From a virus: a stretch of 64,000 bases of DNA. The stretch covers positions 1 through 64,000 of the IMG/VR virus record IMGVR_UViG_3300029827_000001; one strand, written 5' to 3'. A program made the translations under genes and the position numbers. Shown in pieces: positions 4,828 to 40,103 of the stretch; within the stretch, counting starts at the first letter, position 1; each line of letters starts with the position of its first letter. The notes under the pieces are model-generated. The model did not search any database, had not been told where the DNA came from, and saw only the letters and a list, made by a program, of their open reading frames with translations.

Positions 4828-4926
4828 CGAAGTCCCTCCTTTTTTAAATTATATTGAGCGAGGATACACTTCAAGCCCGGTGCATTTCCCTAGTGCGCCA
4901 CCTCAGAACGAGGTGAAGACCTAACC
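4828..4926 (-). other. 99-base gap with a small hairpin
   Basis: No reading frame here has a start site. On the minus strand CACCTC and GAGGTG (around 4900-4917) can form a 6 bp hairpin, and CTTCA with TGAAG could enclose it. This is weaker than the stems at 899-974, 4101-4172 and 5805-5913, so I list the gap without claiming a defined RNA. Confidence 0.35.
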
Positions 4927-5343
4927 TTATGGTTTTATCGCTCCTGGCGGAGGTTGAATACCCCACCTCATAAAATGTACCAGAGAACGACAGTTATGGA
5001 CAGCTTTTGCATTTGAATTTCTAGAACCATAACAATTCACAGAATAATAATAACCTCCCCCTTTAGTCTCTTTTCTTATAATAAGATAACCAATATTGGA
5101 AGAATTCTCAGGAGGCATAAAAGTTTGAATGGTATCATTCTCAACTTTCTGAACGCTAGTAGAACTGTAATTCACCAACCAGTTAATTGCTCTTGTCCAA
5201 ACTCTCTCCTCATCATCCTTTGACGCATAAAACTGAAAAGGTTCATATTGAATAGTATTAAGATACTTTATCCTTTCCTCTTTCCTTGCTGACGCGCAAC
5301 CTGCTATAACGAATATAAGTAAGATTAACATAAGTTTACGCAT
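4927..5343 (-). CDS. putative lipoprotein, 138 aa
   Basis: Signal with lipobox V-I-A-G-C-A (Cys at residue 16) after M-R-K-L-M. The mature protein of about 120 residues has two further Cys near the C-terminus (N-C-Y, N-C-R) that could form a disulfide. Size and lipobox would also fit an outer-membrane spanin subunit, but there is no matching inner subunit beside it, so I do not name it. Confidence 0.65.
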   Translation of the reverse strand: MRKLMLILLIFVIAGCASARKEERIKYLNTIQYEPFQFYASKDDEERVWTRAINWLVNYSSTSVQKVENDTIQTFMPPENSSNIGYLIIRKETKGGGYYYSVNCYGSRNSNAKAVHNCRSLVHFMRWGIQPPPGAIKP

Positions 5344-5367
5344 AACATCCTCCTTTTAGTTTTTTAG

Positions 5368-5580
5368 TCACCTCCTCGTTAATATCTTTATTATTATCCA
5401 AAATACCACAATATTAAACCAAAACCAACCAGATAAGAAATATAGAAAAGATGTACCACCCTCAGCAAGATTAGTCCACGTCCATTTCTTTACAGGATGA
5501 TCATCTGGTAGAAGCGGTTTCATTATCCTCGCAATCAACCATGGAAATAAGACAAATATCTTCTTTAGCCATAGTTCCAT
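5368..5580 (-). CDS. small membrane protein, 70 aa
   Basis: Two hydrophobic segments (residues 5-18 and about 44-65) flanking a polar loop with H-P-V-K-K-W. Predicted two-helix membrane protein, aromatic-rich. The start ATG shares a base with the stop of the upstream zinc gene, so translation is coupled. Function unknown; holin-like topology is possible but not supported by any motif. Confidence 0.65.
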   Translation of the reverse strand: MELWLKKIFVLFPWLIARIMKPLLPDDHPVKKWTWTNLAEGGTSFLYFLSGWFWFNIVVFWIIIKILTRR

Positions 5581-5774
5581 TACTCTGTCTCCGTGTCTTC
5601 CTCACGTTTAACTTCTCCCACACCAGCTTGAAAAACTCTTCTGCAATCAAAGCAGATAAAAAATATTGGAGTCTTCATTGGAACTGGATCTTTCTCAATT
5701 AATAAGTCAACATATTCTCCACAATATCTGCATATTGACTTATCACTTTTCTGTATTATATAGATAGGTATCAA
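5580..5774 (-). CDS. zinc-ribbon protein with TTG start, 64 aa
   Basis: Two knuckles, C-R-Y-C-G near residue 15 and C-F-D-C near 38, form a classic rubredoxin-like or treble-clef zinc ribbon. The last 20 residues are acidic. The start is TTG at 5774, seven bases after AAGGAG. The ribosome site lies directly 3' of the pseudoknot arm of the RNA element at 5791-5913, so translation of this gene may respond to that RNA. Molecular function unknown. Confidence 0.7.
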   Translation of the reverse strand: MIPIYIIQKSDKSICRYCGEYVDLLIEKDPVPMKTPIFFICFDCRRVFQAGVGEVKREEDTETE

Positions 5775-5790
5775 AGGAAATCTCCTTCTT

Positions 5791-5913
5791 AAAAGTGGAG
5801 GACACTCGGGATCGTGGTTCCTAAAACCGTAACATACTCAGGGGATGACTAAGTATTCTGAAGAACAACCACTTTTCCTTTCTTCAGATTTTTTTAGGAT
5901 TTTCGATCCCGAG
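5791..5913 (-). ncRNA. pseudoknotted three-way-junction RNA (element C)
   Basis: In minus-strand order: 5904-5913 pairs perfectly with 5805-5814 (10 bp, extendable outward by a G-U and a C-G); after a 4x4 internal loop 5892-5899 pairs with 5819-5826 (8 bp). Inside are two adjacent hairpins: 5880-5888 with 5857-5865 (9 bp, 14-base loop) and 5849-5856 with 5834-5841 (8 bp including one U-G pair valid only in minus-strand RNA). The 14-base loop holds AAAAGUGG (5869-5876), exactly complementary to CCACUUUU at 5791-5798, just past the closing stem and next to the AAGAAGGAG ribosome site. No known RNA class recognised. Confidence 0.7.
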
Positions 5914-5921
5914 CGATTTGG

Positions 5922-6248
5922 TTAGAGCTTTCTATATTTGGGGGGCTTAAAAATATGCGTTGAGGAGGGTTCCATCGTACCAAGTGGACTCTGACCTTTC
6001 TCATACTTAATCCAAGTATCAGATCCACAAGGTCTCCAGTACTTGTACTCAGTAATAGACTGGGTTTGTGTTTTACCATCAACGATGGATGTACTATCTG
6101 TTGTCTGCATTTTAAACTCAATACAAGCACCGTCATCAACCTGAACTTGAAGCTGATTGCCTGACCCCTTAATTACAATATTCGCACTAGTATAACTAGA
6201 AAATAGAAAAATAGAAATAAGGGGAACTAAAAGTAACATCCTCTTCAA
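5922..6248 (-). CDS. secreted protein, 108 aa
   Basis: Signal peptide (about residues 1-19, ending in S-Y-T-S-A) followed by a small beta-rich domain with two Cys (D-G-A-C and R-P-C-G) that could form a disulfide. TTG 6248 lies a good distance from GGAGGTGA; the GTG at 6257 would be inside that site. Not recognised. Confidence 0.6.
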   Translation of the reverse strand: MKRMLLLVPLISIFLFSSYTSANIVIKGSGNQLQVQVDDGACIEFKMQTTDSTSIVDGKTQTQSITEYKYWRPCGSDTWIKYEKGQSPLGTMEPSSTHIFKPPKYRKL

Positions 6249-6253
6249 TTTAA

Positions 6254-6709
6254 TCACCTCCTTTCTTCTATGATTTCTGCTTCTTCGACCGGCTCCTTAA
6301 CCGGTTGTAGTATATTAACGTTACTGTGATACTCATACTCCTTTATCCAAATGTGACAATTTTTAAGTTCTTCTTCAAAACCAAACTCTTCCATTATTGA
6401 AGTTAATACTTCTTCTTTTGGTATCGCTCTAGTCCCAGAAATGCTAACAGAAAGGTGTTTAGACAAACCAATAGGATGTTCTTCAATTGAGTAAACTATT
6501 ACAAAATTGAACATACCAACTAGTCGAGACTTATCTTTCTCCAATAAATGGTAACCTCCCTTATCCAGCATGTCTTGTAACTTTTCACTAGTAATAATAT
6601 TTTTTTCAGCATATTTCTTGATATGCTTTATCTCATTTCTTGTATATTCATCAAATATAATCTTTCTTGGACTGGTTCTTCGCTTAAACCTCTTAAGAGC
6701 TTCTGTCAT
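6254..6709 (-). CDS. hypothetical protein, 151 aa
   Basis: N-terminal basic helical region (residues 5-40) then an alpha/beta domain and an acidic C-terminal tail rich in Glu. No signal peptide, no catalytic motif. Overlaps the end of the upstream membrane gene by 17 bases, so it is likely translated together with it. Confidence 0.65.
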   Translation of the reverse strand: MTEALKRFKRRTSPRKIIFDEYTRNEIKHIKKYAEKNIITSEKLQDMLDKGGYHLLEKDKSRLVGMFNFVIVYSIEEHPIGLSKHLSVSISGTRAIPKEEVLTSIMEEFGFEEELKNCHIWIKEYEYHSNVNILQPVKEPVEEAEIIEERR

Positions 6710-37802: not shown

Positions 37803-37970
37803 GAACATTAGTAAGGCAGTAAGTATACTATTTTACTCTGTGAGTGGAATTTAAGGAAAAAAACTACGTTATTTGAGAAAAAATGTATTAAACTAAAATT
37901 GAAATTTAATAACAATTTCATACAATTATAGATCTCAGTTCCCTATATGATTTATGATAATGATTATGAA

Positions 37971-38016
37971 CACTTTGGTATAGATAGCTAGGTTGAGAAC
38001 CTGCTATACCAAAGTG
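37971..38016 (+). terminator. terminator-like hairpin
   Basis: 13 bp perfect stem (37971-37983 with 38004-38016), an inner 5 bp stem (AGGTT-gag-AACCT), then CTTTT. The T run is short, so a processing hairpin is the alternative. Confidence 0.6.
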
Positions 38017-38069
38017 CTTTTGGGCATGCGCCCAGGTTATTAAAGAACAAATTCTTATAGGAAAAATTC

Positions 38070-38093
38070 AACCTTAATAAATTTATTAAGGTT
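38070..38093. repeat. 24 bp perfect palindrome upstream of 38112
   Basis: AACCTTAATAAA followed by its exact complement, no spacer. It lies 18 bases above ATG 38112, so it would overlap the 5' leader; an operator for a dimeric repressor or a translation-blocking hairpin both fit. Confidence 0.65.
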
Positions 38094-38111
38094 CAGAAAG
38101 GAGATCAACGA

Positions 38112-40103
38112 ATGTTTAATGGAGATGAAACAATTTGGGTAAATCAAAAGGAATTCCAGTACAAAGATGTAGAGTTTGGATCAGCTTCAATGCTAGATAT
38201 AGCTACTTCAATCAACACGAAAGATTATAAGTACTTCTCTTATGTAACTCTAAATATCTCAATTACTTCAGATTCAGATCGTACAAGAAGAAGCTGTAAC
38301 CTTCAAATTCAAGATGTGAAGAAACTCTTCAACTCATTCAGAGAAGTATCAAAAGATTATGAGGAGGCATATTATAAGAATTCAGAAATCTCTCTCAAGG
38401 TTGGAGATAGATATTTGGAGTTCAAGTATAAAGAGTCAACCTCTGGAACTAGATGTGTGATAATCATAATTGCCTATAGTGAGAATGATTATGGCAGAGT
38501 AATAGTACCATTGGAAGATTTTGAGACAATTATTCATATATTCTCAACTTTCTTTTATGGTTATCAGAACTTTAGGAAAGAGTTAAAAGATCAAATTGTT
38601 AATCATAAGATTGCTGAAACTAACTTATCAATAGAGAGAGGTATAAGGTTACTCCCATCTTCTATTTCAATAGGAGGTATGGAAACTCCAACTTTAGATA
38701 CAGAAACCAAAACTCCTTCTGATGAGCAAGATCTTCTAAAGGACTTTGAGAAACATATAGATGAAAGTCTTGAGAAACCTCTTGAGGAAGAAAAGAAAAT
38801 TCAGGCAGAAGAGAAAATGGAAGTTATTCCAGATATTAATAGTAGTTTTATTAAAGACACCTTGAAGTTAGATTTAGCAAATTATGAAAGAATACTAGTT
38901 GCTGCATCTGGAGAGTATAACTCAACTCAAGCAGTTATAGATAGATTGAAAGAGTCAATGTCCTTACCTAAAGATTTTATGGATCTTCCAGGGATCTCCG
39001 AGAAAGATTATAAGTCAACATTATATATTTCAAGATTCAATTATCTTACAGCATTCAAATTATATATAAGAGATAAAAGTCCAGTTCCCATTTCAATGCC
39101 CCCAATAAAATATAAACCAGATCATTCAAAAGTTCATAGTTCTAACGTTGAGTTAGCATATGATCTTCTTGTTATTAGTGCTTACCTGAAGAATCTGACG
39201 CAAAAGATCGCTCAGAAAAATGCTGATAGTCAGGAGAATAAAGCATTATTCTATTATGCGCATAGATGTTTTACAGATATCTTGTGCTTTAGTTTTCTAG
39301 ATGAAAAAGATGCTGACATTATTAAAAATTGTGTATTAAGTAGATTTCGAGATTATGAAAAAGCTGGTTTCTTTGCTCAATATCAAAACTTATTGTTTGA
39401 GAAAACTTGTACTCCTATAAGTGAGAAAGACATATATAGTTTTCTCGATTTATTAGTTCAGAAAGTACTCCCATCAAAGATGTATGTAGATGACTTTCAT
39501 AGTAAACTTTTTGAAGATCGTTTACTAGTACCACCTTCAAACAATATTAGTTTAGAACAAATAATAAATGAGGTTGTTAAGATTAACGTTCTACATTGTG
39601 TTAATGAACTCAATATTTATGAGGTTGATCTTGCTCAGCTAAATCAAATAATTGATTCTCGAGTTTCTCCGGAAGTATTTGATATTTTGCGAACTCCTAA
39701 AAGTACAAGGAAACAAGTTGAGAAAGTGAAATATACCTCAAATCTTCATTGGTATTTTAATAAGTACAGAGGAGATCTCCCAAAAGGAGAGGGTGATAAA
39801 CTTGTTGAGTACTTTAAAGTATTGGGAGAGAACGATTTTCCATTTAATAACCCTCCAGTTAATTTGGAAGATCTTGATGAAAGGTATGTACGAGCACTAT
39901 ATCATCATAATAACTTAGAGGGAAGTAAGAGAAATTTAGATAGAAATGGTTTTGTTACTTATATTCACGATAGTTGTGATATGACCAAAAGGGATATTCT
40001 TGATAAATATAAAGCAGAAGAAGAATCATCTGAAAAGGGCGAAAGTACTGAACAACCAGCGACCGATGCAGATATATTTAATAATATCTCATGGGATTTA
40101 TAG
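38112..40103 (+). CDS. hypothetical large protein with acidic tail, 663 aa
   Basis: N-terminal 160 residues are beta-rich; residues 200-245 are acidic and low-complexity; the rest is helical. It ends D-A-D-I-F-N-N-I-S-W-D-L, an acidic tip with a final hydrophobic motif like the protein-binding tails of ssDNA-binding proteins. I cannot assign a family. First gene of the plus-strand operon that runs to 48837. GGAGATC site. Confidence 0.6.
   Translation: MFNGDETIWVNQKEFQYKDVEFGSASMLDIATSINTKDYKYFSYVTLNISITSDSDRTRRSCNLQIQDVKKLFNSFREVSKDYEEAYYKNSEISLKVGDRYLEFKYKESTSGTRCVIIIIAYSENDYGRVIVPLEDFETIIHIFSTFFYGYQNFRKELKDQIVNHKIAETNLSIERGIRLLPSSISIGGMETPTLDTETKTPSDEQDLLKDFEKHIDESLEKPLEEEKKIQAEEKMEVIPDINSSFIKDTLKLDLANYERILVAASGEYNSTQAVIDRLKESMSLPKDFMDLPGISEKDYKSTLYISRFNYLTAFKLYIRDKSPVPISMPPIKYKPDHSKVHSSNVELAYDLLVISAYLKNLTQKIAQKNADSQENKALFYYAHRCFTDILCFSFLDEKDADIIKNCVLSRFRDYEKAGFFAQYQNLLFEKTCTPISEKDIYSFLDLLVQKVLPSKMYVDDFHSKLFEDRLLVPPSNNISLEQIINEVVKINVLHCVNELNIYEVDLAQLNQIIDSRVSPEVFDILRTPKSTRKQVEKVKYTSNLHWYFNKYRGDLPKGEGDKLVEYFKVLGENDFPFNNPPVNLEDLDERYVRALYHHNNLEGSKRNLDRNGFVTYIHDSCDMTKRDILDKYKAEEESSEKGESTEQPATDADIFNNISWDL

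Follow-up and report, generated by a model that had tools for sequence, protein, structure and literature searches.

What is the folded segment that separates two genes in the genome of an uncultured large bacterial virus, and what might it do there? The window analyzed here, a 64,000-nt stretch of that genome, carries on its minus strand (approximately 5791-5917) a folded mRNA segment that fills the gap between sec111 and zn64. Its parts, compared with two homologues termed A and B, are listed below in the direction of transcription.

5922-6257, minus strand: sec111, the upstream cistron (111 aa), with an N-terminal signal-peptide-like stretch; its stop codon lies 6 nt before P1
5904-5915, minus strand: 5' strand of helix P1, CGCUCGGGAUCG (RNAfold); two-sided change from A-U (window, A) to G-C (B), and a one-sided G-U/G-C change
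5900-5903, minus strand: 5' side of the internal loop, AAAA (RNAfold)
5892-5899, minus strand: 5' strand of P2, UCCUAAAA (RNAfold; homologue comparison)
5857-5888, minus strand: P3 hairpin (5880-5888 with 5857-5865), with a 14-nt loop that contains AAAAGUGG
5869-5876, minus strand: 5' strand of the putative pseudoknot, AAAAGUGG, in the P3 loop (exact 8-bp match)
5834-5856, minus strand: P4 hairpin (5849-5856 with 5834-5841; RNAfold)
5819-5826, minus strand: 3' strand of P2, UUUUAGGA (RNAfold), with compensatory changes in homologue B
5815-5818, minus strand: 3' side of the internal loop, the ACCA of an ACCACGA that is invariant in all three homologues
5803-5814, minus strand: 3' strand of P1, CGAUCCCGAGUG (RNAfold), 10-11 of 12 positions identical between homologues
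5791-5798, minus strand: 3' strand of the putative pseudoknot, CCACUUUU, 3 nt before the Shine-Dalgarno site
5782-5787, minus strand: Shine-Dalgarno site of zn64, AAGGAG (from the sequence), 7 nt before the UUG start
5580-5774, minus strand: zn64, the downstream cistron (64 aa, zinc-ribbon-like, CxxC..CxxC, TTG start)

RNAfold gives the minus strand a nested P1-P4 fold on which the minimum free energy and centroid structures agree (-44.6 kcal/mol, z -7.7 for 5801-5919). P1 comprises 12 bp, including one G-U pair, and is joined through a 4x4 internal loop (AAAA/ACCA) to the 8-bp P2, while P3 and P4 contribute 9 and 8 bp. Every helix placed by the initial annotation is reproduced, with P1 extending to 5904-5915/5803-5814, and its estimate of about 43 base pairs becomes 45 upon recounting with the pseudoknot included, within an element of ~125 nt. 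In a folding scan of both strands of the 64-kb window (130-nt windows, step 30), the element ranks first with a z of -5.67, followed by a runner-up at -4.98. The second strongest fold, at 37951-38100, is a long hairpin (CACTTTGGTATAG...CTATACCAAAGTG), after which come GGGCATGCGCCC and the AT palindrome ACCTTAATAAATTTATTAAGGT, immediately ahead of the Shine-Dalgarno site that serves a 663-aa ORF at 38112.

The plus strand of the element folds more weakly (-39.7, z -5.0), as any inverted repeat would. This second fold, and the fact that P1 is a long inverted repeat, would be compatible with an element that acts as DNA, such as a cruciform or a recombination or replication site. We regard this as most improbable, given that the better fold lies on the minus strand, that orientation and place relative to the genes are fixed in all three viruses, and that the G-U pairs of P1 (present in two of the three viruses; 5914-5804 in the window) and the one in P4 favor minus-strand RNA, being mismatches in plus-strand RNA. 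The stronger minus-strand fold, these G-U pairs and the compensatory changes described below sustain the original view that a structured RNA of the minus strand has been under selection.

Homologues were sought at loci around relatives of two neighboring proteins and then by low-stringency blastn. Homologue A lies on a 277-kb contig (L020 12509-12644) and homologue B on a 72.6-kb contig (L021 4560-4678), both from uncultured viruses, and a covariance model derived from just the window sequence returns the two with E-values of 7.2e-9 and 6e-6 in a 323-kb search. The z of the fold is -7.7, -3.5 and -4.2 in the window, A and B, respectively. All three share the gene order p480 - p151 - sec111 - RNA - zn64 - m70 - spanin-like - lip214 - p185, into which A alone inserts a 142-aa ORF between the RNA and zn64, and B inserts further ORFs. 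Gene content in the module varies, as B shows: just before sec111 it carries two inserted ORFs that share a CWHCY motif and have signal-like N termini (L021 2683-4203), and a radical-SAM-like ORF (ECPHC) follows zn64 (4835-5644).

The distribution of the element is narrow. Among 27 p480 relatives, the RNA is found in the two known homologues only; relatives with p480 at 65% identity or less are without the RNA, sec111, zn64, m70, spn138, lip214 and p185, and L002 and L004, otherwise the nearest relatives, are of insufficient length to be informative on its presence. Profile searches with three neighboring proteins led to the same two contigs only, as did a strict DNA pattern run against viral contigs, and a relaxed pattern that selected ten viral and at least 119 genome stretches yielded no match when the viral ones and 80 genome loci were searched by covariance. 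No similar element occurs in 72,556 plasmid records or in 50,697 phage records, where the window sequence gave short chance matches at E 6 and the sequences of A and B no match at E 1. The window virus carries T4-type replication genes, with a clamp loader at 32% identity to cyanophage gp44; no p480 relative was found in cultured phages. The initial annotation had matched the RNA to no known class and, in agreement, Rfam covariance models find no match at or above the gathering cut-off, either in the window or at six related loci. The three sequences, all from one narrow clade, make up an RNA family that Rfam lacks, and elements of this general kind are known.

Several helices, a possible pseudoknot, and the location of the most conserved unpaired parts in the internal loop and the strand joining P1 and P2 are features that a small-molecule riboswitch or a new self-cleaving ribozyme might share. 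Such an identity is nevertheless very unlikely, as positions 5760-5940 give no Rfam riboswitch or ribozyme match even at E<=10 (plus-strand chance matches only, E 2-8), the downstream genes are non-metabolic phage genes without an assigned role, and the P3/P4 region is not conserved.

Comparison of the window with A or B gives identities of 58-68% for sec111, zn64 and the spanin-like gene, and of 41-52% at their third codon positions. P1 together with the ACCA loop side is identical to the window at 29 of 30 positions in A and 27 of 30 in B. In a structure-fitted alignment, 92% of cells are paired and six pairs show two-sided change, versus zero to one in slid controls; as such an alignment leans toward structure, pairs were recounted by eye, anchored on the invariant ACCACGA. 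Two-sided compensatory changes number one in P1 and two to four in P2, and those recovered by eye (A-U to G-C in P1; C-G to U-A and U-A to C-G in P2) all lie in B, the few events counted reflecting three sequences from one narrow clade. Both the conservation of the fold and its compensatory change are shown; the initial annotation had staked its structural claim on such changes in homologues, and both P1 and P2 carry them. Considered by itself, P2 has strong pairing in the window; in B the pairing is moderate, with 6.6% of shuffles equal to it, and in A it is weak, at 27%. The P3/P4 region is variable: P3 is retained in A with one G-U change and is weak or absent in B, and P4 has a shorter equivalent in A and is replaced in B, which has other pairings instead. 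A hammerhead-like CUGAnGA in P3 was considered and set aside, as it is kept in neither A nor B.

The 8-bp pseudoknot of the initial annotation fared unevenly across these genomes. In the window, the match is exact (chance about 1%): its loop-to-tail pairing is equaled by 0.8% of the 15-nt stretches in the rest of the genome and by 3.7% of shuffled tails, making the pseudoknot credible there. In B, whose pairing is of the AAAGAAAA/UUUUCUUU type, 5.3% of same-length genomic stretches do as well, which is suggestive but borderline, and in A the figure is 48%, so that a pseudoknot in that genome is unsupported. The invariant ACCAC could instead pair with GUGG, which the P3 loop contains as GUGGUU in the window and as GUGG in A, and a GUGGU partner adjoins P2 in A and B; on sequence grounds, this pairing is an optional competitor of the loop-to-tail pairing. 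Two further rearrangements were examined and rejected. A switch between two local hairpins (GGGAU/AUCCU and GUGGU/ACCAC) is present in the sequences and minor in the predicted ensembles, and an outer helix between the stop region of sec111 and the Shine-Dalgarno site, predicted by RNAfold in A and B, is at chance level (fractions 0.09-0.66).

The position of the RNA within its operon is closely constrained. P1 starts 6-7 nt past the upstream stop codon in all three viruses (TAA, TAA and TAG) and its end lies 9-15 nt ahead of a Shine-Dalgarno site, within intercistronic gaps of ~147, 149 and 131 nt in the window, A and B. On the minus strand near the element, consensus scans turned up no site resembling a terminator, promoter-like sites were fewer than in shuffles, and no intrinsic terminator (a compact G+C-rich hairpin with a loop of 3-8, then a T run) was found at 5791-5915. 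P1 encloses ~90 nt; in the window and in A, no T run comes directly after it, and the sequence in B is UUUUCUUUU.

A free-standing functional RNA cut from the late mRNA, whether a trans-acting regulator, a decoy or a packaging RNA, would account for a compact, self-contained fold with few homologues and a conserved core sequence. We consider it improbable, since the RNA lacks a promoter or terminator of its own in the consensus scan, is squeezed between stop codon and Shine-Dalgarno site in three of three viruses, and has no second copy in any record searched. The initial annotation had left the choice between a translation switch and a free-standing RNA; the tight fit between stop codon and Shine-Dalgarno site and the absence of a promoter or terminator favor an element that acts in cis.

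The gene downstream is, as first annotated, a TTG-started zinc-ribbon gene, a 64-aa ORF with two CxxC motifs at 5580-5774. Its AlphaFold model is all-beta (pLDDT 84.6) and has no significant fold match in the PDB, the best non-significant matches including the Rpb9 zinc ribbon, and its sequence matches nothing in Pfam, PHROG or NCBIfam. The tie between this gene and the RNA, also part of the original proposal, holds in that both belong to the same operon, but the two are not adjacent in A, where the 142-aa ORF directly follows the RNA. In that genome, zn64 is joined to the inserted ORF by a GTGA overlap, and would thus still depend on initiation after the RNA. Two other roles were tried and rejected: fold-stimulated readthrough or frameshifting, because the downstream frame stays open for just 26 codons in the window and 7 in A, and a type III toxin-antitoxin RNA, as no repeats were seen.

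The ribosome termination structure, which bacteria place just past stop codons and which is enriched at intercistronic gaps of at least 25 nt (PMC7518266), offers a ligand-free explanation: a translation insulator or an mRNA-stability element, whose post-stop fold blocks scanning ribosomes or 3'-5' nucleases and thereby uncouples expression of sec111 from that of the genes below. The stable fold 6-7 nt past the stop codon and the gap of ~131-149 nt match such structures (PMC7518266). They are, however, described as a folding-energy signal and not as a sequence family (PMC7518266), whereas the element has a near-invariant stem and loop and spans the gap to the next Shine-Dalgarno site. A pure barrier needs no conserved stem sequence, yet P1 and the ACCACGA loop hardly vary though compensatory pairs would do, and we judge this explanation possible but rather unlikely.

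We propose instead, with about even confidence, that the element is a cis-acting intercistronic translational operator in a polycistronic phage mRNA. Because the P1 and loop sequence is conserved beyond base pairing, a bound ligand is favored, most simply a protein. The conserved P1 and inner loop (ACCACGA side) would most likely form the protein binding site, with zn64 as a candidate autogenous repressor and the apical hairpins as a variable scaffold; in the window genome, one hairpin loop may pair with the strand just before the Shine-Dalgarno site. Formation or melting of the fold would then set ribosome initiation, or re-initiation after sec111, at the downstream gene. We infer that the ligand is a protein, and likewise the direction of its effect and the role of the pseudoknot; to our knowledge, zn64 has no known RNA-binding activity. 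Predicted accessibility of the Shine-Dalgarno site varies among the three viruses and depends on the surrounding sequence supplied, and hence reveals no on/off switch common to them. A more specific and, in our estimate, unlikely extension is a class of RNA switch in which the zinc-ribbon protein, or another ligand, attaches to the P1/ACCACGA core and the ACCAC/GUGG and loop/pre-Shine-Dalgarno pairings are exchanged, coupling translation of the two genes across the ~140-nt gap.

Phage mRNA operators known to have complex folds are few. GOLLD and ROOL, which are free-standing and several hundred nt long, are likewise phage-linked structured RNAs without known function, whereas the element here is ~125 nt, sits inside an operon and matches neither Rfam model. 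The nearest functional analogues of the element, similar to it in position and overall logic, are the ribosome termination structure and the T4/RB69 gene 32 operator. The T4 gene 32 product, gp32, is a zinc protein that binds the 5' pseudoknot of its operator. The operator is a ~28-nt pseudoknot followed by more than 40 nt of less structured RNA with UUAAA-type repeats (PMC535899), and a 2010 review considered the T4-type gene 32 pseudoknot perhaps the sole viral example in translational autoregulation (PMC3014915). Like the T4 and RB69 operators, the element is an intercistronic structured mRNA, with a putative pseudoknot, upstream of a ribosome site in a large phage whose replication genes are T4-like, and a small cysteine-rich protein is encoded downstream. 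It differs in its ~125-nt length, its long conserved closing stem and its lack of UUAAA/UAAA repeats, with only AAG and the Shine-Dalgarno site separating the tail from the start region, and in a downstream gene unrelated to SSB. Ribosomal-protein leader operators such as the rpsO (S15) pseudoknot operator (PMC3014915) are also leaders near the ribosome site with a pseudoknot, here putative, and are regulated by the encoded protein, a role for which zn64 is here a candidate, but the present case concerns a phage gene and has no Rfam match. The element represents a conserved RNA family that one clade of uncultured large phages carries and Rfam lacks, with zn64 as a small candidate partner, and such phages carry structured mRNA elements beyond Rfam coverage.

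Other structured RNAs were noted in relatives at 64% identity. Directly upstream of p480, a different RNA of ~130-140 nt occurs at L022 9786-9913, L023 9776-9916 and L024 637-777, with a P1 of AGCTCAGTAGCGTT/AACGCTACTGGGCT versus AACCCAGCAACG/CGTTGCTGGGTT and a conserved ACACTTCCGRACG, followed by a small hairpin and a Shine-Dalgarno site; the window, whose p480 overlaps the gene before it, lacks this RNA. At L022 20200-20289 and L023 20190-20285, nearly perfect stems of 20-23 bp differ in sequence and have a similar apical part (GTTAGCA..GCACTGAAAAATGTGCGCT), and are likely a compensatorily evolving hairpin RNA.
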